A stretch of 64,000 bases of DNA from Xanthomonas arboricola pv. guizotiae (GTDB lineage Bacteria; Pseudomonadota; Gammaproteobacteria; Xanthomonadales; Xanthomonadaceae): the NCBI RefSeq assembly GCF_002940205.1, contig NZ_MDSK01000022.1, positions 21,287-85,286 of the forward strand, read 5' to 3'. Below the pieces are notes generated by a model. The model saw only the letters and a program-made list of their open reading frames with translations. It was not told the DNA's origin and made no database searches. Position 1 is the first letter of the stretch. The number at the start of each line of letters is the position of its first letter. A program made the translations under genes and the position numbers. Positions 31,007 through 55,302 of the stretch are shown here, piece by piece.

Positions 31007-31038
31007 GATGAACCCTCCAGGGACATCCAAGAAGGTCC

Positions 31039-31068: not shown

Positions 31069-31218
31069 GTTGTCCGTAGGTCCGTCAAGGTCCACCCTCA
31101 TCCATTGAAATCCAGGTCGATCGGGGGCATAGATGGGGCACCGGCCCCGGTAATCCCCCCCGCAGGTTAGCAGGCGTCAGAAGTGGAATTTTCTCGTAGT
31201 CTTTCCCGAGGAGGTTCC

Positions 31219-31485
31219 ATGAAAAAGTCCCGCTTCACCGACAGCCGGATCATCGCCGTATTCAAGCAGGCCCAAGCCGGCACGCCGGTGCCGGAGTTGT
31301 GCCGCGAGCATGGCATCGGCTCAGCCACCGTCTACAAGTGGCGCAGCAAGTTCGGCGGCATGGACGCATCGCTGATGTCCCAGCTCAAAGAACTGCAGGA
31401 CGAGAACCGGCGCCTGAAGAAAATGTATGCCGAGGCCCAACTCAGTGCCGACCTGCTGAAGGAAGCGATGGCAAAAAAATGGTGA
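31219..31485 (+). CDS. IS3-family transposase OrfA (88 aa)
   Basis: Helix-turn-helix DNA-binding subunit: [21 protein letters not shown] then [24 protein letters not shown] leucine-zipper-like stretch ([20 protein letters not shown]) follows. It ends TGGTGA right after the A7 slip site, so part of the ribosomes would shift into OrfB. Confidence 0.9.
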
Positions 31486-32306
31486 GGCCATCTCAGCGCC
31501 GGGAGATGGCCCGATGGGCAGTTGAAGGTGGGCAAACGAGTATCCGGCACGCCTGCCAGACCTTTGCCGTAAGCCAGACCTGCTTCCGCTACCAGGCCAA
31601 GGCGAGTGAAGAGAACGGACGGATCGCCGACTGGCTGGTGCGGCTGACCACGGCCTATCGCGACTGGGGCTTCGGCTTGTGCTTCCTGCACCTGCGCAAC
31701 GTCAAAGGCTTTGGCTGGAACCGCAAGCGGGTGTACCGCATTTACCGGGAGCTGGAATTGAATTTGCGGATCAAGCCGAGGAAGCGTCTGGTACGGGAGC
31801 GACCGGAGCCTCTGGCCGTACCCGATTCGATCAACCAGGTCTGGTCGATGGACTTCATGCATGACCAGTTGGCCGACGGGCGCAGCTTCCGGCTGTTGAA
31901 CGTGCTGGACGACTTCAATCGCCAAGGCCCGGGGATCGAGGTCGATCTGTCGCTACCTTCGGCCCGCGTGATCCGGTCGCTGGAGCAGATCATCGAATGG
32001 CGCGGCAAGCCGCGCACCATTCGCTGCGACAACGGCCCGGAATACATTAGTGGCGCGCTGCTAGCCTGGGCGCAGCGGCACAACATCCGAATTGAGCATC
32101 TCCAGCCGGGCAAGCCGCAGCAGAACGCCGATGTCGAGCGCTGCAACCGCACCGTCCGCTACGCCTGGCTCGCCCGAATCCTGTTCGACACCATCGAGCA
32201 GGTACAGGACCAGGCCACGCGCTGGCTCTGGACGTACAACCACGATCGCCCGAACATGGCGCTCGGTGGCATCACGCCGGCGATGAAGCTGGCGATGGCC
32301 GCATAG
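31479..32306 (+). CDS. IS3-family transposase OrfB with rve integrase core (275 aa)
   Basis: DDE recombinase domain: first Asp in VWSMDFMHD, second in IRCDNGPEY, Glu in [12 protein letters not shown]. The ATG at 31479 overlaps the slip site; the product is normally made as an OrfAB fusion by -1 frameshift. All three catalytic residues remain, so it may be active. Usual IS51-group members read VERFNRT; here the Phe is Cys. Confidence 0.9.
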
Positions 32307-33792: not shown

Positions 33793-35010
33793 CTATTCCT
33801 GCAGGTGTCGTCGTTTGATCAGATGCTGTCTGACCAACCGGGCCACGCGCACACCGACGTAGGCCCAATGCAAGGACCGGGGCAGAGGCACGGCCTGGCG
33901 ATCCATGTCGGTGGGAAAGAGCAATCCCGGCAGCACGTTTAGGCGGCCGCGCCATGTCGATTGCAGAGACAGCAGGTGCCTGATGTAGGCAAACAGTCCG
34001 ATCCGCACCGCCAGATCCGCACCGCGATCGGACCCGATCGCATCCATGCACGGTAACAGCGCAGCGGCGGCCGGTCGGGCTTTGTGCAGCAAAGTGGTTT
34101 GCTGCCGTAGCGCCGCGGGTAGCGCGATTCCCAGACTTGCTTCGGCCAGCAGCGCACTCAGCGCCAGCTGTCTCTCCACGCCAAGTCGGCGTGCCAGCGC
34201 GAGGACCGCCCCCCAGTCCAGCTGCGCACTGCCAAGCGCCTGCGCCATGTCCACCAGCCAGAAGGTGCGATGCCAGTGGTGCTTGGTGCCATGGAATGCG
34301 GCATAGACCACAGCTGCTGGCTGCGACAGCGTGGGCACATGCATCCCGCCCAACACGACTGTGGTGAGATGATCGCGCCAGACCTGTTTGCTGAGCGGAA
34401 ACTGGTGCTCGTGGTTGGCCAGTCGCAGATGCAATTCCAGCACCACCCTGGTTTCGGAATGACGCAGCGGTAGGGCATGGTTGTAGCGGCTATATTCCGT
34501 TGGATCGAGTGCGGCGTCCGATTGCAGCACATAGCCCAACGCGCTCAGTGCGGACAGCGCGTGTTGGCTGGCATGCGGCTCGATCAGCACATCGATATCG
34601 CTTGCTTCGCGGCGATGCAGTTGGCCAAACTGCGCGGCATACCCCAATCCCTTGAGCAGGCAGCAACGGATGCCCGCCTGCTGCAGCGCAGTCACCATCT
34701 CGCGGATGGCGGCCGTTTGCTGCAATGACTGCAGCAGCATGCGTTGCTGCCGACGCCGCAGTGCTTCGCGTATTGCGACAGGAACGCTGGCCGCCAGGAT
34801 GTCGGCCGCAGGTAACGCCAATGCCATTCGATGCTGTGCAAGCGAATGTTCGAAGGAAACCACATCGGGTGGCGATGCCGCCGCCGGTAGTGCTGCAGCA
34901 GCAGGATCGTGTTGCCGCCATAGCGACAGAATGTAGCCGAACGCAGACGACCACGTCGCACAAGCGTTCTCAACCGTTAGGGTGCAATGCACTTCAGCGC
35001 GCAGTTGCAC
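33793..35010 (-). CDS. Nucleotidyltransferase-family protein of the RiPP cluster type (405 aa)
   Basis: Matches the uncharacterised nucleotidyltransferase family (NTP_transf_5): CCLLKGLGY at about 116-124 and the metal-binding pair in ASDIDVLIEPH (Asp138, Asp140), then HHWHRTFWLVDMAQAL. Such proteins are recurrent neighbours of lasso-peptide genes with kinase and sulfotransferase genes (paeninodin-type clusters). The start is a GTG at 35010; an inner GTG is possible. It would transfer a nucleotide to a small substrate, perhaps the peptide, but this is inference. Confidence 0.72.
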   Translation of the reverse strand: MQLRAEVHCTLTVENACATWSSAFGYILSLWRQHDPAAAALPAAASPPDVVSFEHSLAQHRMALALPAADILAASVPVAIREALRRRQQRMLLQSLQQTAAIREMVTALQQAGIRCCLLKGLGYAAQFGQLHRREASDIDVLIEPHASQHALSALSALGYVLQSDAALDPTEYSRYNHALPLRHSETRVVLELHLRLANHEHQFPLSKQVWRDHLTTVVLGGMHVPTLSQPAAVVYAAFHGTKHHWHRTFWLVDMAQALGSAQLDWGAVLALARRLGVERQLALSALLAEASLGIALPAALRQQTTLLHKARPAAAALLPCMDAIGSDRGADLAVRIGLFAYIRHLLSLQSTWRGRLNVLPGLLFPTDMDRQAVPLPRSLHWAYVGVRVARLVRQHLIKRRHLQE

Positions 35011-35350
35011 GAGAATCGCAAGTGGTGAACGCGCGCACCTTAGCGCGTCTGTGGCCTGTGCTACGTTTGCTGCCAGGGGCCATATCCGCGTTTGCGGATT
35101 GCGAGGGACACTGAGCGAAGTGGTAATCGATGCGCATCGTTTTGAGCCGCCTGACGGCCGTGTTTGTCATGCCGGCCCAGCGCCGATGCGCTGTGCATAC
35201 CCCGCGCTATTAATAGCACAGCATTTGCCGTGTCGCGGCTTGCTCATGCGCGTAGCGGAAGGGGGTGCGCGAGGTTGCCGCGATGGCTTGGGTCAATCCC
35301 AGGTATCTTACACATGCGCTTGATATTGCCGATCGTTGAGGAGCCGCTCC
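35011..35350. promoter_or_regulatory. Divergent intergenic region with palindrome
   Basis: No gene is recognised. The perfect 12-bp palindrome GCTATTAATAGC at 35206-35217 is enclosed by CTGTGC (35191-35196) and GCACAG (35216-35221). It probably holds the promoters for the nucleotidyltransferase (minus) and the tail-collar operon (plus). Confidence 0.4.
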
Positions 35351-35890
35351 ATGAATGAGACCGATGCATTTGTTGGTGAAATCCGCCTGTTTCCGATCGA
35401 CTGGGCGCCCGCCGGATGGCTGCCCTGCGATGGCCGCCAGCTGCAGATCAACAGCAACGTCGCGCTGGCGTCGCTGCTCGGTAACCAGTTCGGCGGCGAC
35501 GGCAAGACCACGTTCAATCTGCCGGACTTGCGCGGTCGTGTCCCCGTCAGCCAGGGTATCAATCCGCTCACCTCGCCGCCGGTGTCCTACGTGGTGGGCA
35601 CCTATGGTGGGTTGGAGGGCGTGGCGCTGACCGCGGCGCAGGTTCCGCCGCATATGCACGCCATGAATGTGATCGATGCGGCAGCCACCACCGGCGCGTT
35701 GGACGGTAGCGGACTCTTTGCGCAGACACCGACCCCGCACAATCTGTATGCGCCAAGCGGCACATTGGTCGGTCTGGCGGCGGATTCCGTCAGCCAGGAA
35801 GGCGCCGGTGCCGCCCACAACAACATGCAGCCATCGCTGGTGCTGAATTTCTGCATCTGCACGGTCGGCATCTACCCGCAGCGCCCCTGA
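35351..35890 (+). CDS. Phage tail collar-domain protein 1 (179 aa)
   Basis: Starts with FVGEIRLFPIDWAPAGWLPCDGRQLQI and GNQFGGDGKTTFNLPDLRGRVPVSQG, the tail-collar (microcystin-dependent protein, MdpB-type) domain, and ends ICTVGIYPQRP. No signal peptide is evident. First of three tandem paralogues; the next starts 24 bp after this stop. Related triplets occur outside prophages; their function is unknown. Confidence 0.88.
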   Translation: MNETDAFVGEIRLFPIDWAPAGWLPCDGRQLQINSNVALASLLGNQFGGDGKTTFNLPDLRGRVPVSQGINPLTSPPVSYVVGTYGGLEGVALTAAQVPPHMHAMNVIDAAATTGALDGSGLFAQTPTPHNLYAPSGTLVGLAADSVSQEGAGAAHNNMQPSLVLNFCICTVGIYPQRP

Positions 35891-35914
35891 AGCGGGCCAT
35901 AAAGGAACCACACC

Positions 35915-36466
35915 ATGGATGCCTACATCGGTCAGATCATTCTGTTTGCCGGCGATTACGAACCCCAGGACTGGGCGTTCTGCGATGGACGTCAGCTGCA
36001 GATCACCACCTACATGGCGCTGTATTCGCTGATCGGTACCACGTACGGCGGCGATGGTAGGACCACCTTCAACCTGCCGGATCTGCGCGGCCGCGTGGCG
36101 GTCTCGCAAGGGCAGGGCGTCGCGCGTGCGCAAACGCCGCAGTTGACCGCACGCGTGCTGGGTCAGCAGTTCGGCACCGCGACGGTGTCCCTGCAGACGG
36201 CAGAGATGCCGGCGCACAGTCATACCCTGCAGGCATCGACCGCACCGGCGTCTGCGCTGACGCCGAGCAACAATCTGCTTGCCGTTCCGCAGAATGCGGA
36301 AGTGTTCTATTTCGTTCCGCCCACGGGGAGCAGCCCGCCGGTAACCAACTTGGCGGCCACCGCGGTGAGCGTGAGTGGAGCCAGTCAGCCCCACGACAAC
36401 CACATGGCGGCGCAGACGCTGAGCTATCTGATCTGCCTGAACGGGTTCTATCCGCAGCGGCCCTGA
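35915..36466 (+). CDS. Phage tail collar-domain protein 2 (183 aa)
   Basis: Second paralogue: YIGQIILFAGDYEPQDWAFCDGRQLQI, GTTYGGDGRTTFNLPDLRGRVAVSQG, AEMPAHSHTL and the terminal LNGFYPQRP. The same layout as its neighbours suggests a hetero-oligomer or three related fibre tips. A good AAAGGA ribosome-binding sequence precedes the ATG. The central part, richest in Ala/Thr/Ser, differs most. Confidence 0.88.
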   Translation: MDAYIGQIILFAGDYEPQDWAFCDGRQLQITTYMALYSLIGTTYGGDGRTTFNLPDLRGRVAVSQGQGVARAQTPQLTARVLGQQFGTATVSLQTAEMPAHSHTLQASTAPASALTPSNNLLAVPQNAEVFYFVPPTGSSPPVTNLAATAVSVSGASQPHDNHMAAQTLSYLICLNGFYPQRP

Positions 36467-36490
36467 CCGGCTATCGCAAAGGAGTTCGAC

Positions 36491-37078
36491 ATGTCCAATA
36501 GCTTCATCGGGGAAGTGCGCGCATTCCCTTACAACTTCGCGCCGGAAGGCTGGCTCGACTGCATGGGGCAGACGGTCAGCATCAATCAGTATCAAGCACT
36601 GTTCGGGGTGATCGGCTTTACCTACGGGGGCGACAAGCAGAGCACGTTCGGCCTGCCGGATCTGCGCGGCCGCGCCGTTACCGGCCAGGGACAGGGGCCG
36701 GGCTTGAGCAACTGCACCATCGGTCAGTTGCAGGGTGCCGATTCCGTTGCGCTGGCTTCTGCCTCACAATTGCCGGCCCATACGCACACCATCTCCAGCA
36801 AGTTCCTTGGGCCTGTAGACGCTCCGGGTGGCTCGGTCAATATGCCGGGTTCGTCCGCTTACATCGCGCGTCTGTTGAACCTGACCCTCACGCCGAAAAA
36901 GACGTATGTCGCGTATGCGTTAGCGACGTCGACGCCTGTGGCGCAGATGTCGCCCAATGCGTTGGCGCCTTTTCCTTCCACCGCAGCAGCAGTACAGGCG
37001 CATGAGAATCGCCAACCGTTCACCACGGTGCGCTATTGCATCTGCGCCACGGACGGCATCTATCCACCCCGGCCGTGA
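36491..37078 (+). CDS. Phage tail collar-domain protein 3 (195 aa)
   Basis: Third paralogue: FIGEVRAFPYNFAPEGWLDCMGQTVSI, FTYGGDKQSTFGLPDLRGRAVTGQG, SQLPAHTHTI and ATDGIYPPRP at the end. AAAGGAG precedes the start. Its stop overlaps the start of the GNAT gene (TGATG), so the four genes are one translationally linked operon. Confidence 0.88.
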   Translation: MSNSFIGEVRAFPYNFAPEGWLDCMGQTVSINQYQALFGVIGFTYGGDKQSTFGLPDLRGRAVTGQGQGPGLSNCTIGQLQGADSVALASASQLPAHTHTISSKFLGPVDAPGGSVNMPGSSAYIARLLNLTLTPKKTYVAYALATSTPVAQMSPNALAPFPSTAAAVQAHENRQPFTTVRYCICATDGIYPPRP

Positions 37079-37611
37079 TGCCGCTGCACTTCGCCTGCCC
37101 TGCGCCCTTGCTGGCGCAGGGCATGGCGATCCGTCCCGAGGGCATGGCGGACCTACCCGCGCTACGCGAGCTGCTTCGCCGCGAGCACTGGGGCGAATTT
37201 GCGATGTTGCCGTGGGACGATGCGGCAAAGGCCGCATTGCTCGATCAACAATTCGAGGCGCAGCGCCGCCATTACCTCCGCATGCATCCTGGTGCCTTGT
37301 TTTTGGTCCTGGCGCTCCGGGAGAGAGTGATTGGTCGTCTCTATCTGGCGGCGACGGAGAAGGGCGAGCTGCGTGTGCTGGACATTCTGTTGTCGCTCGA
37401 TCAGCGGAGCCAGGGAGTCGGAACGCTGCTGATCAGCGCGGTGCTGGATCAGGCGCGCGCCGAGGGACAGTGTGTGCTGCTTGAAGTGAAAAAAGGCAAT
37501 CCTGCGGTCAACTTGTACCAGCGGCTCGGCTTCCAGGAATTTGCCGATGCGGGTATCTCCTGGCACATGGTCTGGCATCCTGTCGTTAGCGGTAGCCAAG
37601 CCAGTCCATGA
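37078..37611 (+). CDS. GNAT-family N-acetyltransferase (177 aa)
   Basis: Acetyl-CoA-dependent acetyltransferase fold: IRPEGMADLPALREL at the start, the pyrophosphate loop LDQRSQGVGTLLIS (Q/RxxGxG type) and the C-terminal NPAVNLYQRLGFQEFADAG. The ATG overlaps the stop of tail-collar gene 3. It might acetylate one of these proteins or a cell component. Its 3' end overlaps the convergent sulfotransferase gene by 26 bp. Confidence 0.88.
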   Translation: MPLHFACPAPLLAQGMAIRPEGMADLPALRELLRREHWGEFAMLPWDDAAKAALLDQQFEAQRRHYLRMHPGALFLVLALRERVIGRLYLAATEKGELRVLDILLSLDQRSQGVGTLLISAVLDQARAEGQCVLLEVKKGNPAVNLYQRLGFQEFADAGISWHMVWHPVVSGSQASP

Positions 37612-38407
37612 CGACACCGTGGTCGGAGGCCACGCGTTGGGCCTGTTCCGGGGTGAGCGCGGACCGCCAGGCGCCGGCGCGGCCCTGGCGAAAGAATCGC
37701 GTCTGTTCACGGCGGCGTTCGGCGAATCCGCGACGGTCCTCAATGCTGCGTAGCGTTTCGAAATGGGACGCGGCGACAGCGCGTGCCACATGCGACGAGC
37801 CGGAAGGCAGCCCAAGAAACGTCGCCAGGCGTGTCGTCTCGCGCAAGGGCTGGGCCAGAAGATCTTCGTAATGCAGAATTAGGCGCGGCCCTGGCGCCTG
37901 CTGCAGCCACGACGCGACATGTCCTGACCAAGACCCATACCATTGTGGTGTCTGTGTATAAAACGAGCGGCCCATGCGGCTCATGGTCATGCGTGAGTCG
38001 CGCATCTGGCTGATGGCGGCGTCTACGTCCATGCTCATCTGGTCGGCCCAGGAGGGCGCGATGTCGCGTGGGTCGCGCACGATGTAAATCGTTGCGAGCG
38101 TCGCATCTGCTGGAAACAGCGTCGGGTCGTAGCGGTCGTGTACTTTGAGCAGTTCAAGCGACTGCGCTGCGCATTGTCGATAAGCGCTGTTGCGCAGAAG
38201 GTGCAGTTCGGACGATGTGAGATCGCTGCTGTCGACATCGACGAATTGCTCGAGCCAATCGCGCGAGGCCGCAGGCGGCAGGCTCTTGCCGAGCCTATCC
38301 AGGTCCACTTCGGCTGCGCCCGTTTGCAGGCTGGAGATCAGGCAGCGCACCCAGGTGTTGCCGGATTTTGGATACGACGCCAGCCAGATGATGCCGCGCT
38401 GGCTCAT
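37586..38407 (-). CDS. Sulfotransferase-domain protein (273 aa)
   Basis: PAPS-dependent sulfotransferase. The 5'-phosphosulfate loop is YPKSGNTW (residues 12-19) and the 3'-phosphate motif RDPRD is at 111-115; HYEDLLAQP completes the family pattern. It overlaps the kinase-like gene by ATGA, so it belongs to the same minus-strand operon as the B1 gene. Sulfotransferase genes are known companions of paeninodin-type lasso clusters; sulfation of the peptide is inferred. Confidence 0.87.
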   Translation of the reverse strand: MSQRGIIWLASYPKSGNTWVRCLISSLQTGAAEVDLDRLGKSLPPAASRDWLEQFVDVDSSDLTSSELHLLRNSAYRQCAAQSLELLKVHDRYDPTLFPADATLATIYIVRDPRDIAPSWADQMSMDVDAAISQMRDSRMTMSRMGRSFYTQTPQWYGSWSGHVASWLQQAPGPRLILHYEDLLAQPLRETTRLATFLGLPSGSSHVARAVAASHFETLRSIEDRRGFAERRREQTRFFRQGRAGAWRSALTPEQAQRVASDHGVVMDWLGYR

Positions 38408-39291
38408 GTTCCCAGGTGTGTCTCGATCAGTTCGGCGCCGTCGTCCAGTGCATCAAAACGCAACGGACGCAGCAGGTGCCAGACCGGTACTTGACGTGCG
38501 ATGGCGGCGGCCTGGGCAAAAGTCGCCGGTCGCAGGCCGAGCCGCAGGGCGGCCGTTGGCCGCGCCAGGTAGTTGTGCAGCAAGGGCAGCGCGGCACTGG
38601 GGGAATGGCGCTGCATGCTCATTTCTGATGCCTCTTTCAGGATAACGATCGCATCCAGTGGAGCCGGGGTGGGGTCGAATCCCGATTGCGGGCGTAGATC
38701 GAACTTGTCCATCCCCTTGCGCACCTGCGGAAGCCCGACGCATGGCATCTGCAGGGAATCGAGCGTATCGCGCCATAGTTTCAGGCGTGGAAAGGCCGGC
38801 AACACCTCGATGTCGCCTTCAGTGCGGATGACGGTCAGATCATCGCTGAGCAACCCATGGCCGCGCCTGACGAGGGCTGCCGACAGCGTGGACTTGCCGG
38901 CGCCACTATGCCCGGCGATGGCCACGGTGCGGTTGCCGATGCGCAGGCAGGCCGCATGCAGCGGGAACAGGCCGCGCTGCAGGCAGAGGTAACCCAGTGC
39001 GGAGCCGAGCAGGAACAGCCGCCAGCTCTCATCGTCCTGGCGCAATCGCTGTACCTGAATCGAACGCCCGCCGCGCACGAGAATGCGGACCAGATCTGGC
39101 ACCTGCAGCAACACCGAGCCGTCTGCTCCGATGCTCAGCCAGGTGTCGGCGGGATCGGCAGCATCAAGCAGGCTTGGCAGTGGCGCTTCCTCGATCACCA
39201 CGTCCGAGGTGTCGCTTGCAGTCACCGACGCCGGCCAGTGCGGCAACTCAGGAAGTAGCAGGGTGCTGCGCACGTGCCAGCCGCATAGCAA
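38404..39291 (-). CDS. HPr-kinase-like protein (HprK-type serine kinase of lasso cluster, about 295 aa)
   Basis: C-terminal HPr-kinase domain: Walker A GHSGAGKST (residues 127-135 from the TTG start), then LLSDDLTVIR with acidic residues, and FPRLKLW. The full-length HPr kinase N-domain is absent. In paeninodin-type lasso clusters such kinases phosphorylate the C-terminal Ser of the precursor, and the precursor here ends in Ser. The start is uncertain: an ATG at 39459 would overlap the B1 gene by 112 bp; TTG at 39291 or GTG at 39273 fit the family N-terminus better. Confidence 0.8.
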   Translation of the reverse strand: MLCGWHVRSTLLLPELPHWPASVTASDTSDVVIEEAPLPSLLDAADPADTWLSIGADGSVLLQVPDLVRILVRGGRSIQVQRLRQDDESWRLFLLGSALGYLCLQRGLFPLHAACLRIGNRTVAIAGHSGAGKSTLSAALVRRGHGLLSDDLTVIRTEGDIEVLPAFPRLKLWRDTLDSLQMPCVGLPQVRKGMDKFDLRPQSGFDPTPAPLDAIVILKEASEMSMQRHSPSAALPLLHNYLARPTAALRLGLRPATFAQAAAIARQVPVWHLLRPLRFDALDDGAELIETHLGT

Positions 39292-39347
39292 GTAGTCACG
39301 CAGAGGTTCCGCCGCTGACAGTGATGCCGAAGTTTTGCAACTGCTGT

Positions 39348-39629
39348 TCAGGCGCGGATCTCGACAGTGCCAGCGCCGCGCAAGGTTTCCAGCAACGACG
39401 CTACGTCGGTCTCGATCCTGGATCGTGTCGTCGCGTAGTCGGCGCACAACCGGTCGCACAGCGCGACGAATGTGCAGGGCGATGCGAGATGCGTCCAGAT
39501 CTGCTTGCCTATCGGGTCAAGCGAGAAATACAGCCCGCGCTCAGTGTTCATGACCACCAGCTCTTCGCCCATTTCCGCAGCCAGGCAACCAGGCGCCTGC
39601 ACGATCAAGGCGTTCGGATCGATGCGCAT
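39348..39629 (-). CDS. PqqD-family RiPP recognition element, lasso B1 (93 aa)
   Basis: Small winged-helix RRE protein: ALIVQAPGCLAAEMGEELVVMN, then GLYFSLDPIGKQIWTHL, the typical PqqD/B1 strand-helix order. In lasso-peptide systems B1 binds the leader peptide and presents it to the B2 protease. It sits between the methyltransferase (72 bp upstream) and the kinase-like gene, on the strand opposite the precursor gene. Confidence 0.87.
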   Translation of the reverse strand: MRIDPNALIVQAPGCLAAEMGEELVVMNTERGLYFSLDPIGKQIWTHLASPCTFVALCDRLCADYATTRSRIETDVASLLETLRGAGTVEIRA

Positions 39630-39701
39630 GGCGAGTCATCCGCTTGAGGAGTTGAAACCTTAACCGGGAAACGTCTTCCTTGGAAGGAGCATAGGGCGGC
39701 C

Positions 39702-40460
39702 TCAAACGCCAGCAGCGACCCGGTCACTTGGGTGTTCGCGGCGACGAAACACCACCTCGTCATCTGACTGAACGGGCAGGCGTCGATTGTCTGGGCCGAA
39801 CAGCGGGGTGTCCGCTTGTGCAGCTAGCGGAAGGCGGAGGACTGGGTCGAACCAGCGCGCTGCGGCGGTATCTCGAAGGCGGAAATTTGCGTGCCGCAGC
39901 ATCAACAATCCGCCAGGGCGCAGGCAGCGGGCGAAGTCCAGCAACTGCGCCTGCACATCTTCGAATCGGATCAAGTGGTCGCAACGTTCGCCCTGGTGTG
40001 AAGCCAGATCGCCGCGGCGCAAGACCGCCAGGCAGAAGATCGCATCGTAGGACGCGGCGGTTTCACGCGCCGTACTGCCAGCCAGGCGAAACTGAATGGC
40101 AGAGTCCGGTTGCCTTTGAAGCCGGAGGTTGCAGGCCGCAATATGGCCGGGATGGATATCCAATCCCGTGATGGCAGCTTCCGGGAAGTAACTGCGTAAT
40201 GTGAAGACTTCTTCGCCGCTGGAACAGCCGAACGACAACAGGCGCAGGTTCCCAGTCGCTCCCAAGGTGTCCTGCGCAAAGGCAAACAACGTGGGATAGC
40301 GATCCATGGCGGTAGTGCCGTAATCCTGGAAAACGGACGCGGCCGAGGTCAGGCGCAGCCAGGTATACGTTCGGCTTTCACGGTCGCGCAGCGCGCGATA
40401 CAGCTGCTTCGCCCACGAGAAGTGGGCCAACCTGCGCCAATGGGGCAGAAGTCGGCTCAT
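39702..40460 (-). CDS. Class I SAM-dependent methyltransferase of the RiPP cluster (252 aa)
   Basis: SAM motif I reads LLSFGCSSGEE (residues 74-84), like CheR-type methyltransferases, followed by ITGLDIHPGHIAACN with the acidic ribose contact. RCLRPGGLLMLRHANFRL is motif III. It is the first gene of the minus-strand operon (methyltransferase, B1, kinase, sulfotransferase). C-terminal carboxylate or side-chain methylation of the peptide is possible but unproven. Confidence 0.75.
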   Translation of the reverse strand: MSRLLPHWRRLAHFSWAKQLYRALRDRESRTYTWLRLTSAASVFQDYGTTAMDRYPTLFAFAQDTLGATGNLRLLSFGCSSGEEVFTLRSYFPEAAITGLDIHPGHIAACNLRLQRQPDSAIQFRLAGSTARETAASYDAIFCLAVLRRGDLASHQGERCDHLIRFEDVQAQLLDFARCLRPGGLLMLRHANFRLRDTAAARWFDPVLRLPLAAQADTPLFGPDNRRLPVQSDDEVVFRRREHPSDRVAAGV

Positions 40461-40601
40461 CTATGTGTGGAATCTGCAAAGAGCAGTAGAATGGACCTGG
40501 CCGGCCGCAGCAGGATGATTGGCGCATCGGATAGGATTGGCACTACCATCGGTCATGGAACAAGCAGCCAGACTGCAGCGGGGATGTTGCTTGAAGCGTA
40601 G

Positions 40602-40662
40602 CCGGTAGCGGCCATCAACGACACAGCGTGCTACCGGACACGTGGGACGTACGCGGTTGACA
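40602..40662 (+). promoter_or_regulatory. Inverted repeat and -35 element before the precursor gene
   Basis: CCGGTAGC (40602-40609) and GCTACCGG (40630-40637) form a perfect 8-bp inverted repeat. Twenty bases further is a consensus -35, TTGACA (40657-40662). No good -10 follows at 17 bp (the area is GC-rich), which hints at activator or alternative sigma control. The same 268-bp region must also start the divergent minus operon. Confidence 0.4.
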
Positions 40663-40728
40663 CTGCGCGCTGTGCTGGGCGGCGCGTACGCGAGCTGCCG
40701 GCGACTTTACAAAAAACGGGAGTGTGCG

Positions 40729-40884
40729 ATGTACGAGAATGATCAGGCAGTAGCGTCCGATACCTCCTCGCAGACCGAGCGCAAGGTATGGGCGACACCG
40801 GTGGTGTCGTTCCTTGCCATCGATGAGACCGCCAACAATATTTACGCAGGGAACGATGGCGTGGGAAACGGGACCGGTTCCTGA
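40729..40884 (+). CDS. Lasso-type RiPP precursor peptide (51 aa)
   Basis: ATG at 40729 with GGGAG seven bases upstream. The leader carries KVWATPVVSFL (like the Y/WxxPxV block recognised by B1) and ends DETA, with Thr34 at position -2, the conserved lasso cleavage landmark. The predicted core is NNIYAGNDGVGNGTGS (residues 36-51): Asp at core position 8 can close an 8-residue ring onto the N-terminal amine, and Ser is C-terminal. An Asn at core position 1 is unusual (Gly, Ala, Ser or Cys are common). The cyclase gene follows 19 bp later. Cleavage and topology are predictions. Confidence 0.75.
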   Translation: MYENDQAVASDTSSQTERKVWATPVVSFLAIDETANNIYAGNDGVGNGTGS

Positions 40885-40903
40885 GTCCGTCTAGTCGATC
40901 AAG

Positions 40904-42829
40904 GTGAGCGATTTCGCGGGGGTGTGGCGTCTCGACGGCGCACCTGTCTCCGCCGTGGATGTGGTGCGTCTCGATCAAGCGCTGGAAGCACGCGGAATCG
41001 GCTCGCGGCGTGTCTGGCACGGTGGCGATATAGCGATCGTCCATCGCCAGCATTACTTCACAGCGGAGGACGCCTGCGAAGCGATGCCATGGGTGGGCGG
41101 GACCGGGGCAGTCCTTGCCGCAGATGTCGTGTTGGCCGCGCGCCGCGAGCTCGCCGCCGCGCTAGGTGAGCCTCCCAGCAGCTGTAGTCCCGATGGCGCC
41201 TTGTTGCTGGAGGCCTTGCAGCGTTGGGATATCGACGCGTTGCCACGTGTGCATGGGTCCTTTGCGCTTGCGTTGTATCGGCCCGACCAGCGCCGGTTGT
41301 TGCTGGCCCGCGATCCAGTGGGTATCCGCGCGTTGTTCGTGCATCGTGGCCCGAACCTGATCGCGTTTTCCACCCGTTTACGGGCGCTGCTGGCGTTGCC
41401 GGAGATTCCCTCGGATCTTGATGAGCAGGCGCTGGCCGGGCAACTCGTCATGGACAGAACGCGGGCGACGCGCACGATCTATCGCTCTATCGACCGGGTG
41501 CCGATGGCACATGTCCTGAACATGACGCAGGAATGGACGCGCGTGCAGCGATGGTGGTCGCTGCCGCAAGCCGGTGTCTTGCATTTGCGCAACGATGAGG
41601 AGGTCGAAGAGGCCGCCGCTGAGGTACTGGATCTGGCCGTTGCCGACTCCCTGCGTGCGCCCGGTCGTGTCGCCATGTGCCTGACGGGTGGCCTCGATAG
41701 TACGTCGGTCGCTCTTTCCGCCGCGCGTCAACACACCGCTGCGCCACTTCTTGCTTTCACGCGGTTCCCGCAGGCGGCGACTGCAGCGCCCAACGCACGC
41801 CACTACTATGACGAATCGCCGCGTGCCCGCTTGCTGGCCGCCAGCCATCCGGGCATCGACTGGCACATGGTCGGCGACGATGGCCAAGACTGGGGCGAAC
41901 ACGATGCTGAGCGTTGGCTGCGCGAAGGTGCGCAGCCAACGCGCTCCCCACTGAATATGGCCTGGTTTTTTCCCCTCTATCGTGAGATGGAGGCGTGCGG
42001 CTGCAGCGTCCTGATCGGTGGCGAGCTAGGCAATGCGTTTTTCAGCAATGACGGCTTGTCCCGGTTGCCGGACTTGCTCCGCGACCGCCAGTGGCGCACG
42101 TTGCTGATGCAGACGCGTGCGCTGGCGGCCACCGAAGGGTTGAGCGTGCGCAAGGCGCTGCAGCGCCACGTGCTGCGCCCTTTCATGCCGATCGCGGTTA
42201 TCCGGCGCTGGCATGGTCTGCCCGCCGACATATGGATGTGCAACGCCGCTCTGAATCCCCAGTTTGCACGAGAGCTGGATCTGCGCCGTACGTTGGAAAT
42301 GAGCCGCCACCGGATTCTTTTCCGTGCCAACCATCCTTCGCTCGCGGTGCGGCGAGAGTGGTTCCTGAGCGATGCCGTGGCGATGGAGACCTATGGGGTG
42401 CTTCGCGCAATGTCTGGCGTGGATATCCGCATGCCGCTCGCCGACCGGCGCGTCATCGAGTTCTTCGGCAGCCTGCCGCTGGATCAGTTCCTGCGCGATG
42501 GCGTCAGCCGATCGCTGCCGCGTCGGTTGCTCGCCGCACGCGGCGCACCTCCGGAAATTTCCGCCAACCGTCAGGTGGGCGTGCAGCATGGGGACTGGTT
42601 CGCGCACCTGAGCGCGCGGCGCGCCAGCATGCAGCAGCAACTCCACACGCTGCAGGACTCCGCGCTGGCGCGGCGCGTGCTCGACCTGCCGCGACTGCAA
42701 GGATTGCTGGACAATTGGCCGCGCGATGCTCAGGCCGCTGAGTCCAAACGTGAGGCCTATCTACAGATGCTGGTATATGGGTTGCAGACCGGCGGCTTCC
42801 TGGCCTGGCACGAGCGCGGCGGTCGCTGA
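40904..42829 (+). CDS. Asparagine-synthetase-like macrolactam synthetase, lasso cyclase C (641 aa)
   Basis: Two-domain AsnB-like protein. The N-terminal domain lacks the catalytic Cys2 of glutaminases (MSDFAG in place of MCGI) but keeps VHGSFALALYRPDQRRLLLARDPVGIRALF. The C-terminal ATP pyrophosphatase loop is LTGGLDSTS (260-268). In lasso systems this enzyme adenylates the ring Asp/Glu and forms the isopeptide bond. GTG start at 40904. The end of the gene lies in a perfect palindrome (42815-42850). Confidence 0.88.
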   Translation: MSDFAGVWRLDGAPVSAVDVVRLDQALEARGIGSRRVWHGGDIAIVHRQHYFTAEDACEAMPWVGGTGAVLAADVVLAARRELAAALGEPPSSCSPDGALLLEALQRWDIDALPRVHGSFALALYRPDQRRLLLARDPVGIRALFVHRGPNLIAFSTRLRALLALPEIPSDLDEQALAGQLVMDRTRATRTIYRSIDRVPMAHVLNMTQEWTRVQRWWSLPQAGVLHLRNDEEVEEAAAEVLDLAVADSLRAPGRVAMCLTGGLDSTSVALSAARQHTAAPLLAFTRFPQAATAAPNARHYYDESPRARLLAASHPGIDWHMVGDDGQDWGEHDAERWLREGAQPTRSPLNMAWFFPLYREMEACGCSVLIGGELGNAFFSNDGLSRLPDLLRDRQWRTLLMQTRALAATEGLSVRKALQRHVLRPFMPIAVIRRWHGLPADIWMCNAALNPQFARELDLRRTLEMSRHRILFRANHPSLAVRREWFLSDAVAMETYGVLRAMSGVDIRMPLADRRVIEFFGSLPLDQFLRDGVSRSLPRRLLAARGAPPEISANRQVGVQHGDWFAHLSARRASMQQQLHTLQDSALARRVLDLPRLQGLLDNWPRDAQAAESKREAYLQMLVYGLQTGGFLAWHERGGR

Positions 42830-42850
42830 TCGCGATCAGCGACCGCCGCG
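42815..42850. repeat. Perfect 36-bp palindrome over the cyclase stop codon
   Basis: Eighteen bases (42815-42832) are followed directly by their exact reverse complement (42833-42850). The TGA at 42827-42829 is inside the left arm. No T-run follows. As RNA it forms an 18-bp hairpin at the end of the A-C message; as DNA it could be a protein site. Confidence 0.85.
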
Positions 42851-43163
42851 TGGGCATACAGCCCGCGCCAAGGCTGCGCCGCGATCGACAGCGCAACGCG
42901 CCCGGTCTGACGTTTGTTAGGCTAGCCGACACGGCAAGGCACTCGGCCATGGGAAGCCGCTCGGGCCCGCGTGATGGCATGAGCTCGATCGCGTCTGCCG
43001 CCCTTCCCTCGACACGTGCCTGCGCCATGCTCTTTCCTCCTTCGGTCCTGCAGTCACGAATGCGGACACCACAACGTTGCTTGGCGGGAGTGCGCCATGC
43101 TCATATCGCGGCGGTGGAGTCGATTGCCGCGCAAGATCACCCTAGCTGGGATGAGGGCTGCCC
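42851..43163. other. Intergenic region between cyclase and B2 genes
   Basis: About 310 bp with no supportable gene; overlapping frames look like noise. A gap of this size is odd in an otherwise tightly packed cluster, and may hold a second promoter or a deleted gene. Confidence 0.35.
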
Positions 43164-43658
43164 GTGAGCGTTTCCCGCGCTGTCAGCGGCTTCCATCGCA
43201 GGCTGGTCGCCTTCGCGCGCCTGCCTCGCTTCGAGCGGCTGTTACTGGTGCCGGCCTGGCTGCTGCTGGGTGCAGCGCGGGGCGCCGTGCGGTTGGTGGG
43301 CTTTCGCCATCTGGCACCCTGGGTGGGCCAGCAAGTGGCAGTACCGCCAGCGTTGCCACGCCTGGATGAACGTGCGCAACGTCGCGCCCTGCAGATCAGC
43401 CGCACCCTGCGGCTGGCCGCACGCCACACGCCCTGGGAATCCAACTGCCTGGCGCAGGCGTTGGCGGCGCGTTGCCTGCTAGGCCTGTTCCGGGTCGCCC
43501 ATTTGCTGTGCCTGGGCGTTGCGCGTAGCGCAGACGGATCCGCACTACAGGCGCATGCCTGGGTATCGGCCGGCAGCCAGCACGTCACCGGCGGACACGG
43601 GACCGATCGCTTCACTCGCGTGGGTTGCTTCCTGCCACGCACACGGCAAGCCCGGTGA
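43164..43658 (+). CDS. Lasso peptide B2 protein, transglutaminase-like leader peptidase (164 aa)
   Basis: Cysteine protease-like B2: N-terminal helix RLPRFERLLLVPAWLLL, then catalytic Cys95 in WESNCLAQALAARCLL and His131 in LQAHAWVSAG, the standard B2 pattern. It cuts the leader after the Thr(-2) position. GTG start. It overlaps the exporter gene by GTGA. Length (164 aa) is slightly long for B2 proteins (about 140-160). Confidence 0.85.
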   Translation: MSVSRAVSGFHRRLVAFARLPRFERLLLVPAWLLLGAARGAVRLVGFRHLAPWVGQQVAVPPALPRLDERAQRRALQISRTLRLAARHTPWESNCLAQALAARCLLGLFRVAHLLCLGVARSADGSALQAHAWVSAGSQHVTGGHGTDRFTRVGCFLPRTRQAR

Positions 43659-45397
43659 CAGTCCTGCGCTTTGTTGCCGGCCTGTTGCGGTGGGCGCCGC
43701 GCGGCCGCTGCATCGGGCTGGCGCTGCTGATGGTGCTGGCTGCGGTTACCGAAGGCATCGGCATGCTGCTGCTGGTGCCGCTGCTGAGTGCCATGCAAGG
43801 CGCTAGCGCTGCGATCGGAATGGCGCACCAACTGCTGCGCCTGCTGGCAGCACTTGGCCTGCCGGCGAACGCGCCGATTCCCTTGCTGCTGCTGTTCTGT
43901 CTGATGCTGTTACTACGCAATGCGATCCAGTTCGGTCGCGAACAGCGCGCGGCGCGACTGCAGCAGGGCGTGGGCAAGCGGCTGCGCACGAGTAGCTTCG
44001 CTGCCCTGCTCGGTGCGCAGTGGCGCTGGCTGGCGGGCCTGCGCGCTGGCGACCATGCCAGCCTGATCCTGAGCGATGTAGGCCGCGCTGAAATCGGGCT
44101 GGGACACGCTCTGGCGATGTTTGCCTCGGCGATCACCGCCGTGCTCTATCTACTCGCCGCCTTCGCGTTGTCCTGGAAGCTGGCGCTGGTTGCGGTGCTG
44201 AGCGGTGTTGCGTTGCTGCTGGTGGGCGGCCAGCGGCGCGGGCTGGCGCTGCTGGGATGCCAGCTGACCGAGGCAAACCAACGCTTGCATGCAGGTCTGC
44301 ACGACCGTCTGTCCGGTTTACGGCTAGCCAAGATCCTCGGTGCCGAAACGGCGTATCTGGTTGCGTTCGAACAGACCGCCGGCACCATCCACGACCAGCA
44401 ACTGCGCTTTGCGCGCGGCTTGAGCGTCTCCAAGGCCTGGCTGCAGAGCGCAGGCGCGATCCTGTTGGCGTTTTATGTCTACCTGGGCTTGCAGGTCCTG
44501 CATATGGCGTTGGCCGAGCTACTCGTGCTGGTGGCCATTTTCGCGCGCCTGGTACCGCTGCTGACCACGGTGCAACAACAACGCCAGTACTGCCTGCATG
44601 CGGCAGCTGCGTTCAGCGCGATCGAACGCCGGCTACAGGAGAGCCGGACCTGGGCCGAGCCGCCCCTGCCTGACACGATGCCGCGGATCCAGCTGACCAC
44701 GTCGATTGCGCTATCTGCGGTCCAGGTCCAATACGCCGGACGCGATACGCCCGCGCTGCAGGATCTGTCGTTACGACTGCCGGCACGGACCACCACCGCC
44801 GTGGTCGGCGCCTCCGGTGCAGGCAAGAGCACCCTGGCCGATGTCCTGAGCGGCCTGCTTGGCCCCGACCAGGGCACGTTGGAGATCGACGGCGTGATGC
44901 TGGACGCGGCCGCGCGACGGGCCTGGCGCCGCTCGGTGGCCTATGTCTCGCAGGACGCCTTCCTGCTCAACGACAGCGTGCGCAATAACCTGTTGATTGC
45001 TTGTCCGGATGCAAGCGAACAGGCGTTGTACGCTGCGCTGGATCAGGCTGCCGCCCAGTTCGTCCATGCGTTGCCACAGGGTTGGGACACGCCGGTCGGC
45101 GAGGGCGGCATGCCGTTGTCCGGGGGAGAGCGGCAGCGCCTGGCACTGGCCAGGGCCCTGTTGCAACGTCCGGCCTTGCTGATCCTGGACGAGGCGACCA
45201 GCGCGCTGGACCATGACAACGAGGCACGCATTCGCAGCGCCGTCCAGAACCTGCATGGTGACCTGACTGTCCTGCTCATCGGCCATCGGCTGGCCTTGCT
45301 GGAACAGGCCGACACCGTGCTGGTTCTGGATTATGGGCGGCTGGTGGCGCAGGGCCCATGGCAGGTAGTGGGGCCGGTCTGGATCGGCGCCCGGTGA
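43655..45397 (+). CDS. ABC exporter of the lasso cluster (McjD-like, 580 aa)
   Basis: Half-transporter with N-terminal membrane helices (LALLMVLAAVTEGIGMLLLVPLL and following) and a C-terminal ATPase: Walker A GASGAGKST, Q-loop VSQDAFLLNDS, signature LSGGERQRLAL, Walker B LLILDEATSALD. The GTG start overlaps the B2 stop (GTGA), so it is likely the peptide exporter and immunity factor. Its stop overlaps the flippase gene (TGATG), joining the RiPP and polysaccharide loci. A lipid-linked sugar flippase role is the alternative. Confidence 0.8.
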   Translation: MTVLRFVAGLLRWAPRGRCIGLALLMVLAAVTEGIGMLLLVPLLSAMQGASAAIGMAHQLLRLLAALGLPANAPIPLLLLFCLMLLLRNAIQFGREQRAARLQQGVGKRLRTSSFAALLGAQWRWLAGLRAGDHASLILSDVGRAEIGLGHALAMFASAITAVLYLLAAFALSWKLALVAVLSGVALLLVGGQRRGLALLGCQLTEANQRLHAGLHDRLSGLRLAKILGAETAYLVAFEQTAGTIHDQQLRFARGLSVSKAWLQSAGAILLAFYVYLGLQVLHMALAELLVLVAIFARLVPLLTTVQQQRQYCLHAAAAFSAIERRLQESRTWAEPPLPDTMPRIQLTTSIALSAVQVQYAGRDTPALQDLSLRLPARTTTAVVGASGAGKSTLADVLSGLLGPDQGTLEIDGVMLDAAARRAWRRSVAYVSQDAFLLNDSVRNNLLIACPDASEQALYAALDQAAAQFVHALPQGWDTPVGEGGMPLSGGERQRLALARALLQRPALLILDEATSALDHDNEARIRSAVQNLHGDLTVLLIGHRLALLEQADTVLVLDYGRLVAQGPWQVVGPVWIGAR

Positions 45398-46629
45398 TGC
45401 CTCGCCTGCCGCCTGCGTGGCGTGGCCTCGCGCGCGGTTTGTCGGCGCAGTGGGTGTCGATCCTGTTCACCGCCGCGGTCTCGCTGGCGCTCTCGGTGTG
45501 GCTGGCGCGCGGGATGGGCCCGGCCGGCTTCGGTCGCTACGCCTATCTGCTCAATCTGGCGACCTTGCTGGCGCTGCTGCAGGATGCCGGCATGCGCACC
45601 CTGGTACTGCGCGAAGGGGTTGCGGCCGGCATCCCGGCGACGATGGCGCGCGCGCTGCCGGGCCTGGCACGCGGGCATCTGCTGTGGTCCACGCTGCTGC
45701 TGGTCGCCGCAACCCTGGCAGCGACGCACGCCGGCAGCGATCCGGCACTGGTCTTGGCGGTGCTGTGCTTCGGCGCGGTCACTCTGACCCAGCTGGTGTC
45801 GGCGCAACTGAAGGCGGCAGGCCAATGGCAACGCGATGCCGGCTGGCTGGCGGGTGCGCGCGCCCTCAGCGCGGTGCTGGTGGTGGCGGCAGTGCTGCTG
45901 CTCGGCCACGACCCTGGCGTGGTCTTCGCTGCCTGGGCATGTGGCCTGCTGCTGGCCTACGTCTGGTTGGGGCGCGGCCTGCACGATCGACCGCTCTGGC
46001 GGCCACAGCCGCTGGCATATCGCGCGGCCGCCGGCTTTTTCTGGATCGATACCGCGACCGGCCTGTACCGTCGTAGCGACGTGGTGATCCTGCAGCACAT
46101 GGTGCCAGCGGCCGAGGTTGGCCAGTATGCCGCCGCGTATCGCGTGTTCGATGGCGTGCTGTTGCTGGCGATGCCGGCCGCCTTGCTGCTGTTCCGCCAG
46201 TTGCGCCTGGCACGCGCGCAGGCCGAGCGCGCGCGCCGGCTTGAGGACCGTGCCCTATGGGTGGCCGGCGCGGCGGGTTTGGCGCTGGCGGCCACCGGCG
46301 CCTGGCTCGGGACCTGGCTAATGGAAGTGTTGTACGGAGCGTCCTATCGCGTGGTGGCGGGGCAGCTGCTCGGTTGGTTGTTTGCCGCCTTCGTGTTCGT
46401 ACTGCCGAATTACGTGCTGACCCAGGCCGCCATCGCCTGCGACCAGCAGCGTTGGTACGTGCTCGGCGCCGGTGTCGCGGCGGTGGTCAACATCGCGCTG
46501 AATCTGCTGCTCACCCACCACTACGGTGTGCACGGCGCAGCCATCGCCGTGATCGCCACCGAGGCGGTACTGACCGCCACATTGTGGTGCGGGCTGCGCA
46601 TTGCAGGGCGCGGTCGCACTCTCGCATAG
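45397..46629 (+). CDS. Polysaccharide flippase, Wzx/GumJ-like (410 aa)
   Basis: MATE/MOP-superfamily membrane protein with about 12 hydrophobic segments, starting WVSILFTAAVSLALSVWLARGMGPAGFGRYAYL, the family entry motif. It probably flips lipid-linked repeat units across the inner membrane. ATG overlaps the stop of the ABC exporter (TGATG). The presence of polymerase and Wzz genes downstream supports a Wzx/Wzy pathway. Confidence 0.82.
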   Translation: MPRLPPAWRGLARGLSAQWVSILFTAAVSLALSVWLARGMGPAGFGRYAYLLNLATLLALLQDAGMRTLVLREGVAAGIPATMARALPGLARGHLLWSTLLLVAATLAATHAGSDPALVLAVLCFGAVTLTQLVSAQLKAAGQWQRDAGWLAGARALSAVLVVAAVLLLGHDPGVVFAAWACGLLLAYVWLGRGLHDRPLWRPQPLAYRAAAGFFWIDTATGLYRRSDVVILQHMVPAAEVGQYAAAYRVFDGVLLLAMPAALLLFRQLRLARAQAERARRLEDRALWVAGAAGLALAATGAWLGTWLMEVLYGASYRVVAGQLLGWLFAAFVFVLPNYVLTQAAIACDQQRWYVLGAGVAAVVNIALNLLLTHHYGVHGAAIAVIATEAVLTATLWCGLRIAGRGRTLA

Positions 46630-46717
46630 CTGCGTTGCCGCCGCTGCAATCGCTGTGGCACAGTGCTGCCGGTACGGCATGGCGCTCCCATGCCCCTTGA
46701 ACCCAAGCGAAGATCTG

Positions 46718-47989
46718 ATGCCGGGTATAGACGAGATCCCTGAACGCCATGACGAGGTCTCCCTGGGCGATCTACTGCTGGAAGTGCTGCGCTTCTACCA
46801 ACAGTTCGGGCGCCTGCTGATTCCGCTGGCATTGCTGTTTGGGGCAGTGGCCGGCGTGCTCGTGGTCATGCGCCCCCTGTATGCGCTCACTGCGCTACTG
46901 GAAACGCCGCAGATGAGCCTGGAACAATGGCGCAAGCTGCAACCCATGCTGGCCGACCGTCAGTTGGTGGCGTCCTCGCTCGCCAGCATGACCGACTTGC
47001 CGACCGAGCAGCGCGAGCGCCTGCAACGGGCTTTCTTGCGCAGAAATTACTGGGACACGCGCGTGACCTACCGCAGTGCGGTCGAACGCGATGACATTCG
47101 CAAACAGGTCAACATCGATCCCCAAAGTGTCGGCGCGCTGGGATTGGAAGTGTCGTTGTACGCACGTGACGATGCGGCTGCGAACCAGCAGCTGGACGCC
47201 ATTGCGCAGCATGTGCGCCAGGTCGTGCTGTGGGCCGGGATGCGTGACTATCTGGACAGCCTGCGCCAGCAGACGCTCCAACAACGCTCGCAGTTGCAGA
47301 TCGCCCAGATACAGCAGCGTTTCGCGATCGAACAGAACGAGCGGCAGTCCGCGGATATGCAGCGGTTGCTGGAGCGCTACCCGGAACTGCGGCGCAACGA
47401 GGTCAACACGGTCGTGTCGGTAGGCGATGGTGGCGGACGCTATCTCTCGCCACTGGCGCAGATCGTCGCACTGCAGTCGACCATCGCCGGGACGCGGACT
47501 ACGTTGCGTCAGGTAGAACGCGACTTGGAACAATTGGATGGCAAACAGCGCTTCCTGGCACGGGTAGACCAGCGCGCGCCAGCGCTGCATCTGGGCACGT
47601 CCCTGGCAGATTGGATACAGAGCTGCCGACGCGCCGTCTTCGGAAACGGCGCCCCCTCCGGTTCGGCGCTGTCGCAGGTCGCCAGCGAAATAGACTTGGC
47701 GCTGTCGCAACAGCGCTGGCGCGCGCAACTGGTGCGCTACCGGGCCATCCCGGCGTTGTCACCGGCGCCAGTACCCTCGCGCCGGCCGGCGCTGGTTGGG
47801 CTGGCAGTCTTCTTAGGGGTGTTGCTGGTCTCGTCGCTGGCATTGGCGATGTATGTCATCGTACGCCGCCATGGCGACCGGCACGCACCCTGGTCGGCAC
47901 ATGCCGATCCCCTGTTCGCCTGGTTGCCGCAGCGCGTGCGGCAGCTGTTGCTCGGGTCGACCGACCCGCGCCCGCTGGGGCATGGATGA
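46718..47989 (+). CDS. Wzz/GumC-like chain-length determinant (423 aa)
   Basis: Two flanking membrane helices (LLIPLALLFGAVAGVLVVM near the start and LVGLAVFLGVLLVSSLALAMYVIV near the end) enclose a long periplasmic coiled-coil region rich in Gln/Arg. This is the co-polymerase layout; it lacks the tyrosine-kinase domain, as in GumC or Wzz. It overlaps the epimerase gene by ATGA. Confidence 0.78.
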   Translation: MPGIDEIPERHDEVSLGDLLLEVLRFYQQFGRLLIPLALLFGAVAGVLVVMRPLYALTALLETPQMSLEQWRKLQPMLADRQLVASSLASMTDLPTEQRERLQRAFLRRNYWDTRVTYRSAVERDDIRKQVNIDPQSVGALGLEVSLYARDDAAANQQLDAIAQHVRQVVLWAGMRDYLDSLRQQTLQQRSQLQIAQIQQRFAIEQNERQSADMQRLLERYPELRRNEVNTVVSVGDGGGRYLSPLAQIVALQSTIAGTRTTLRQVERDLEQLDGKQRFLARVDQRAPALHLGTSLADWIQSCRRAVFGNGAPSGSALSQVASEIDLALSQQRWRAQLVRYRAIPALSPAPVPSRRPALVGLAVFLGVLLVSSLALAMYVIVRRHGDRHAPWSAHADPLFAWLPQRVRQLLLGSTDPRPLGHG

Positions 47990-55299: not shown

Positions 55300-55302
55300 G
55301 CG

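Follow-up and report, generated by a model that had tools for sequence, protein, structure and literature searches.

The window analyzed here, i.e., the whole stretch of 64,000 nucleotides of Xanthomonas arboricola pv. guizotiae DNA (contig NZ_MDSK01000022.1), contains at positions 33793–45397 a lasso-type cassette of genes for a ribosomally synthesized and post-translationally modified peptide (RiPP). A preliminary description of this interval had listed genes of a precursor, a cyclase, B1 and B2 proteins, an exporter, a kinase, a sulfotransferase, a methyltransferase and a nucleotidyltransferase. Every one of them is present there, the proteins other than the precursor being recognized by Pfam and NCBIfam matches, and lasso-type RiPP biosynthesis with a kinase, a sulfotransferase and a nucleotidyltransferase is well supported by the anatomy and conservation of the cassette. 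Three features had been missed: a trio of collar protein genes with a GNAT gene, an adjoining polysaccharide locus, and an apparent exchange of the cassette core as a module. Gene content, precursor pattern, co-occurrence and incongruent gene histories were read directly from the window and the genomes and loci compared with it (designated by G and L numbers, respectively).

The precursor gene (40729–40884, plus strand) encodes 51 aa with a KxWxxP leader and Thr at position −2; its predicted core, NNIYAGNDGVGNGTGS, occupies residues 36–51 and corresponds to the 16-residue core proposed earlier. It is followed by the gene of an AsnB-like macrolactam cyclase, or C protein (40904–42829, plus strand, 641 aa; PF00733, 100 bits, above the cut-off). 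The cyclase begins with MSDF and hence has no Cys2, confirming that the glutaminase Cys is absent, and it retains the PP-loop motif TGGLDS; both features fit a lasso cyclase and not a glutamine-using synthetase. The transglutaminase-like B2 leader peptidase (43164–43658, plus strand; PF13471, 71 bits) scores 71 with the NCBIfam lasso_biosyn_B2 model (NF033537; cut-off 33). In the B2 alignment, all 22 rows with a letter at the Cys site retain Cys, and all 23 with a letter at the His site retain His. The ATP-binding cassette (ABC) exporter, or D protein (43625–45397, plus strand; PF00005 and PF00664), comes after B2 here and in seven other Xanthomonas loci. An open reading frame (ORF) at 42850–43167 was considered as an additional gene and rejected: it has no family match, and a counterpart exists only in X. 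floridensis among the compared loci.

The remaining genes of the cassette lie on the minus strand. The B1 protein, a PqqD-like RiPP recognition element (RRE; 39348–39629), matches PF05402 with 53 bits, over the Pfam cut-off, and its closest solved chain is TbiB1 (5v1u). The S-adenosylmethionine-dependent methyltransferase (39702–40460; PF08242) has a GCSSGEE motif, which we take to be CheR-like. The sulfotransferase (37586–38407; PF00685, 100 bits), whose gene shares 4 bp with that of the kinase, has the glycopeptide-antibiotic enzymes Teg12 and Teg14 as the closest solved structures, with StaL lower in the list. The nucleotidyltransferase-like protein is encoded at 33793–35010 (PF14907, 149 bits; KG...DID motif in the translation). 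As for the HPr-kinase-like peptide kinase, its longest ORF spans 38404–39459 and the true start is probably near 39294. Its PF07475 score of 33.0 bits is marginally short of the cut-off of 33.3, and the TIGR04352 match is also below the cut-off. The motif H..GHSGAGKS..DD is intact in the window, and 31 of the 33 kinase rows listed match the pattern H..G..GxGKS..DD (L031 and L114 deviate), whose importance in BsfK is documented in the available text of PMC10368454.

An alignment of nine precursors contained 18 invariant columns out of 51, including K19, W21, P24, T34 and A35 of the leader and positions G6, D8, G9, G11, T14, G15 and S16 of the core. The leader of the window precursor contains [YW]xxP and Thr(−2) with a Pro-to-Thr spacing of 10 residues. 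Asp occupies core position 8 in this precursor and in 9 of 9 close relatives, and all ten close precursors (the nine aligned and that of L027) end with Ser. Additionally, short ORFs with [WY]xxPx[LVIM] were collected on both strands within 6.5 kb of the cyclase at 40 loci; the core start was set by Thr(−2) or, failing this, 12 residues past Pro. The scan yielded 80 candidates, 38 of them ending with Ser. Of these 38, 30 carry Asp or Glu at core position 8; of the remaining 42 candidates, 2 do. The Ser-ending set may include spurious entries, as one in L126 appears to be, and the ten close loci cannot be taken as independent of each other. Among the 28 Ser-ending candidates beyond the ten close loci, Asp or Glu was present at position 8 in 20 and at position 9 in 6 (one has both), that is, at either position in 25, with at most two at any other position. 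WxxP, Thr(−2), Asp/Glu at position 8 or 9 and the C-terminal Ser thus recur at distant, mostly alphaproteobacterial loci. This shared pattern is strong evidence for a predicted macrolactam ring that has 8 or, in some cases, 9 residues, and the final Ser is probably phosphorylated. Ser-ending WxxP candidates were also seen near cyclase relatives of L116, L118, L124, L125 and L130, where the 20 kb read contain no kinase; L116 and L118 have three such candidates each.

The cyclase was found in 8 of 35 Xanthomonas genomes, and the gene set is also kept in Paracidovorax and in a second genus of the family, one genome of which encodes a cyclase with 84% identity. Close proteins carry the names X. 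prunicola, X. theicola, X. floridensis, X. arboricola, X. rydalmerensis, X. citri pv. mangiferaeindicae and Paracidovorax cattleyae. A single-protein cyclase query of genome contigs gave four loci; an alignment query and whole-genome searches were then used. In the class of G713, the alignment query detected 23 loci, spread over 14 of 385 genomes; in the class of the window, it detected loci in 3 of 369 genomes, the window genome counted. Genome G797, alphaproteobacterial and of the same class as G713, has at least five cassettes (L109, L112, L115, L136, L137). Among plasmid records, the precursor had no match, and distant cyclases occurred in three records. Precursors adjoin the same cyclase in other genomes, which was the check that the preliminary description had put forward for its own refutation. 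The gene order is retained in the seven other cassette-bearing Xanthomonas loci read and rearranged in G281 and Paracidovorax. Comparison with X. prunicola, X. floridensis and G011 indicated purifying selection, the ratio of nonsynonymous to synonymous divergence (dN/dS) being 0.12–0.44 (0.15–0.88 for the short precursor). Since the order is kept, the genes recur and selection is purifying, the cassette is not a chance assembly.

On its right side, the cassette adjoins a polysaccharide locus. A Wzx-like flippase (45358–46629, plus strand; PF01943) is followed by further polysaccharide genes at 46601–61240, which are conserved beside the cassette where read. They encode a Wzz-like protein (name inferred, no family match), NAD epimerase, methyltransferase, Wzy, GlcNAc 2-epimerase, glycosyltransferases including one of the WecG type, an undecaprenyl sugar transferase, and a second AsnB-like amidotransferase (49728–51713). 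Matches to PF01943, PF04932, PF00534, PF03808 and PF02397 identify the region as a Wzx/Wzy locus. The 8 of 35 Xanthomonas genomes that have the flippase are precisely those that have the cyclase. Polysaccharide genes adjoin the cassette in Paracidovorax too; in G281, about 22 kb separate the cyclase from B2 and the exporter.

Divergence along this region is uneven. Between X. floridensis and the window, synonymous divergence (dS) is 1.14–1.87 for the genes from GNAT to the cyclase and 0.20–0.31 for B2, the exporter and the flippase. The reverse is seen with G281: dS is 0.32–0.64 from collar A to the cyclase and 0.52–1.22 for the nucleotidyltransferase, B2, the exporter and the polysaccharide genes, and the block of matching DNA (35336–42822) runs from the collar A start to the cyclase end. 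In a tree of five core proteins, the window, X. prunicola and G281 formed a clade with support of 100/100. The tree of the exporter and three polysaccharide proteins rejects this group (p of the approximately unbiased test, 4e-45), a p-value that differs from that of a blind test since the group was chosen after the identities were seen; the same tree does not reject a clade of G024 and G011 (p 0.168). From the dS contrast and the conflicting trees, the RiPP core appears to have been exchanged between lineages inside a kept polysaccharide background, and the collar trio seems to have moved with the core in G281. A position beside a polysaccharide cluster and apparent movement between bacteria as a unit suggest a likely role of the peptide at the cell surface, where it or the collars may touch the polysaccharide. 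A 36-base perfect palindrome, noticed by eye, lies across the cyclase stop codon (42815–42850), approximately where the right end of the exchanged block is located.

The proximity of the two gene groups raises the question of which substrate the tailoring enzymes use, because the sulfotransferase, nucleotidyltransferase and methyltransferase adjoin the polysaccharide locus in both Xanthomonas and Paracidovorax and could modify the polysaccharide instead of the peptide. This seems quite improbable to us. Among 20 distant loci in which a kinase lies no more than approximately 10 kb from the cyclase, 16 also have a sulfotransferase (a single genome contributes several of the loci; ten further loci with a cyclase relative had no kinase in the 20 kb read). 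In divergence, moreover, the sulfotransferase and methyltransferase of Xanthomonas go with the RiPP core and not with the polysaccharide genes. The nucleotidyltransferase is the gene for which modification of the polysaccharide stays conceivable, its dS being flank-like in X. floridensis and G011.

Within the exchanged block lie three genes of collar proteins, A (35336–35890; PF07484, 94 bits), B (35915–36466; 108 bits) and C (36491–37078; 92 bits), and the accompanying GNAT acetyltransferase (37036–37611; PF00583), all on the plus strand. A homologue profile of collar B matched T4 gp12 (1ocy) with an E-value of 4e-9. Each of the eight cassette-bearing Xanthomonas genomes, and G281 as well, has the trio and GNAT between the nucleotidyltransferase and sulfotransferase genes. 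The collar domain is trimeric in T4 gp12. Three ordered subunits of such a domain suggest, by analogy, that collars A, B and C form a heterotrimer. Outside the collar core, AlphaFold2 gave a poor model of collar B (mean predicted local distance difference test score, 67). A prophage origin of the collars was rejected, as no other phage structural or replication family was found among the 40 window ORFs, a part of the total, scanned with Pfam. The third collar gene of G010 contains an in-frame stop (L028:4829-5251).

Outside the family, 16 genomes have a kinase-bearing cassette and 11 of these have any collar gene. In 8 of the 11, a collar gene lies within 10 kb of the cassette, compared with 0.095 expected under uniform placement (P 1e-15), which is an approximately 80-fold excess. 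The cassette-adjacent collar genes were the only ones found in the genomes G373, G484, G713, G748, G857 and G955. In G797, both collar places, fetched for their collars alone, adjoin further kinase–sulfotransferase–PqqD–cyclase cassettes. In the collar tree, the first, second and third cassette-linked genes fall mostly into separate groups, and the cassette-linked Xanthomonas collars cluster with alphaproteobacterial ones and not with the stand-alone trio of their own genus; support was moderate (SH-aLRT 84–93 at the forks used; a quick method with long branches), and the third gene of L126, both genes of L033 and the single gene of L137 are exceptions. The stand-alone trio with GNAT is found in 17 of the 35 Xanthomonas genomes, is 35–46% identical to the window trio, and never shares a genome with the cassette type.

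It might be supposed that the cassette encodes an ordinary antibacterial lasso peptide (bacteriocin) with extra tailoring, to which the collars and the polysaccharide locus are functionally unconnected neighbors; the complete A, B1, B2, C and D set would suit such a product, and some cassettes, e.g., L128 and L129, have no adjacent collars. We regard this explanation as unlikely in view of the excess of collar adjacency in unrelated genomes, met from the collar side as well, the identical distribution of the flippase and the cyclase, and a predicted tail without plug residues.

Not all collar trios of Xanthomonas are tied to RiPP genes. That idea was rejected because none of the stand-alone trios retrieved, 12 of 17, had adjacent cassette genes; GNAT follows the trio in all 12 loci read. 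An autotransporter, recognized by a barrel match, is located beside the trio in 12 of 12 loci (L065–L076); in the one neighborhood scanned with Pfam it has 1640 residues with Ig and Calx-beta domains. Mla transporter genes also adjoin the trio in L065. Two other loci, L139 and L143, combine PqqD, GNAT and a collar trio without a cyclase or kinase of the cassette kind.

Taken together, we consider it likely that the lasso-type genes turn the last 16 residues of the precursor into a macrolactam with an 8-residue ring and a phosphorylated C-terminal Ser, which is exported, and that this core is exchanged as a module within the polysaccharide locus. The ring, phosphate, sulfate, export and surface role are inferences. 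For a product with the window core, the calculated [M+H]+ values are 1491.646 (cyclized), 1571.612 (phosphorylated), 1571.603 (sulfated) and 1733.665 (with phosphate and hexose). In the proposed pathway, PqqD would bind the KxWxxP leader and present the linear precursor to the kinase, which would act on Ser51, and likewise to the sulfotransferase, methyltransferase and nucleotidyltransferase. A hexose or nucleotide may be added to the phosphate, by analogy with pseudomycoidin. B2 would cleave after TA, the cyclase would link Asn36 (core position 1) to Asp43 (core position 8), and the ABC protein would export the product. The collar trio, a predicted three-subunit assembly resembling a tail fiber tip that travels with the cassette, probably cooperates with the peptide at the cell surface.

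Several observations weigh against parts of this reconstruction. The cyclase scores 214 bits with the lass_lactam_cya model (cut-off 525), PqqD scores 57 with the NCBIfam lasso model (cut-off 80), and the kinase falls short of the curated HPr-kinase cut-offs; these scores are consistent with the database names of the cyclase (‘asparagine synthetase B’ or similar). The collar link also has gaps. Paracidovorax oryzae has the cassette and polysaccharide genes and no adjacent collar trio, and G623, G945 and Paracidovorax carry collars only away from the cassette. G713 has two collar genes with no GNAT detected, and G797 has, at one of its two collar places, a single collar gene and no GNAT. The count of adjacent collars falls from 8 to 7 of 11 with the cyclase search alone, G797 having been found only from the collar side; it becomes 8 of 14 when the left-out genomes G717, G742 and G855 are added, and corresponds to 8 of the 19 distant genomes searched, counted with the omissions. 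Finally, the predicted window tail, GVGNGTGS, has no bulky residue, which makes a stable thread doubtful.

For this last reason, the product may be an unthreaded branched-cyclic peptide, serving as a signal or strain tag, and not a lasso. Tails of the 28 tabulated precursors are small, with 5 to 11 residues; 11 of them lack all of the residues FWYRKHMLIQ (among these, L033 has no assigned ring), and swapping of the core as a module would also suit a tag. We hold an unthreaded product to be a real possibility without favoring it: 17 of the 28 tails contain at least one of these residues, known lasso machinery as a rule yields threaded products, and the stopper could be a phosphate or hexose carried by the last Ser. 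Threading of tails such as that of the window would require the modified last Ser in this role. The lasso-like peptide of the preliminary description is upheld as to its biosynthetic gene set, with heavy modification as a prediction and threading doubtful.

The xanthomonins of X. gardneri, lasso peptides of the same genus, have a different precursor type and are not known to involve a kinase or sulfotransferase. Putative class II lasso clusters of X. melonis are listed in the accessible part of PMC8734464, which names no genes for them. The earlier assessment that such a gene set looks undescribed does not hold for the kinase set as such, because kinase-bearing lasso clusters of Proteobacteria are known (PMC8498205, section 8), one being that of Sphingobium yanoikuyae. 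According to the available text of the same source, lasso-peptide kinases act on the C-terminal Ser, and sulfotransferase and nucleotidyltransferase genes were noted in clusters of Firmicutes. As far as the partial descriptions go, the paeninodin-type cluster of Paenibacillus and that of Sphingobium yanoikuyae share with the window the split B1/B2, the cyclase, the ABC exporter, the HPr-kinase homologue and the C-terminal Ser. Unlike them, the window has the divergently transcribed sulfotransferase, methyltransferase and nucleotidyltransferase (proteobacterial sulfotransferases of the original papers lie outside this comparison), the internal collar trio with GNAT, the adjoining polysaccharide locus and module exchange.

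Two further systems are similar in part. Pseudomycoidin of the Firmicute Bacillus pseudomycoides, in which a hexose is attached to the phosphorylated C-terminal Ser, also involves a kinase and a nucleotidyltransferase; in contrast to the window, no sulfotransferase or collar genes are mentioned in the portions of PMC8498205 and PMC9266682 describing it. The Bsf cluster of Bradymonas resembles the window in the kinase motif, the nucleotidyltransferase and the RRE, which aids the kinase and peptidase there (PMC10368454, available text). It differs in that BsfK phosphorylates Ser3 and the Bsf precursor ends with Asp and has Ile(−2), whereas the window precursor ends with Ser and has Thr(−2). In the accessible part of PMC10040529, the list of gene families linked to halotolerance in Pontixanthobacter and Allopontixanthobacter contains an almost unbroken row of cassette-like entries (lasso B2, nucleotidyltransferase, two sulfotransferases, PqqD and asparagine synthase), and GNAT and a tail fiber protein appear at other points.

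As for the collars, the domain is that of the PF07484 phage tail collar/microcystin-dependent family and T4 gp12, and the window has it as a bacterial A-B-C trio with GNAT. The literature search found no co-occurrence of ‘phage tail collar’ with ‘lasso peptide’ or of ‘tail collar domain’ with ‘RiPP’, the lasso literature naming a sulfotransferase or tail fiber protein being covered in part. Thus, the cassette itself joins the known phosphorylated-lasso type, and what is new, in the sense of not being met in the literature searched, is its context of collar trio, polysaccharide locus and module exchange. Such a family is easily overlooked, since its members are named ‘asparagine synthetase B’ and, in the case of the collars, ‘phage tail protein’ in databases.

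If these links hold, they would provide a functional context for two orphan groups, the bacterial collar trios and the phosphorylated or sulfated lasso-like peptides. From the swap pattern, in which the core changes and the polysaccharide background stays, one would expect the cassette to confer a strain-specific surface trait, and the peptides allow one to ask whether a C-terminal phosphate or sugar can serve as a lasso stopper. A more speculative proposal, improbable as it stands, is a surface-typing system, in which the phosphate- or sulfate-capped macrolactam of the exchangeable cassette and a heterotrimeric phage-derived tail-fiber-tip protein (collar A-B-C) would act together on the polysaccharide-coated cell, so that strains with the same cassette recognize, adhere to or exclude one another.

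At the left edge of the region (30930–32306), a tRNA-Arg (CCG) gene (30930–31006) is followed by an rve integrase gene (31299–32306), which has an 86% DNA match in L073; the guanine–cytosine content drops here from approximately 0.69 to 0.60. Anchoring of a genomic island at this tRNA-Arg was rejected as a general arrangement, since in G006, G010 and G281 the tRNA-Arg neighborhood is at least hundreds of kb away from the cassette on the same contig; in the other five cassette-bearing genomes searched, it is on a different contig, which carries no weight in draft assemblies. An aspartyl/asparaginyl hydroxylase gene (PF05118) is located at 22398–23774, and a gene of the same name stands among the cassette-like entries in the accessible part of PMC10040529.

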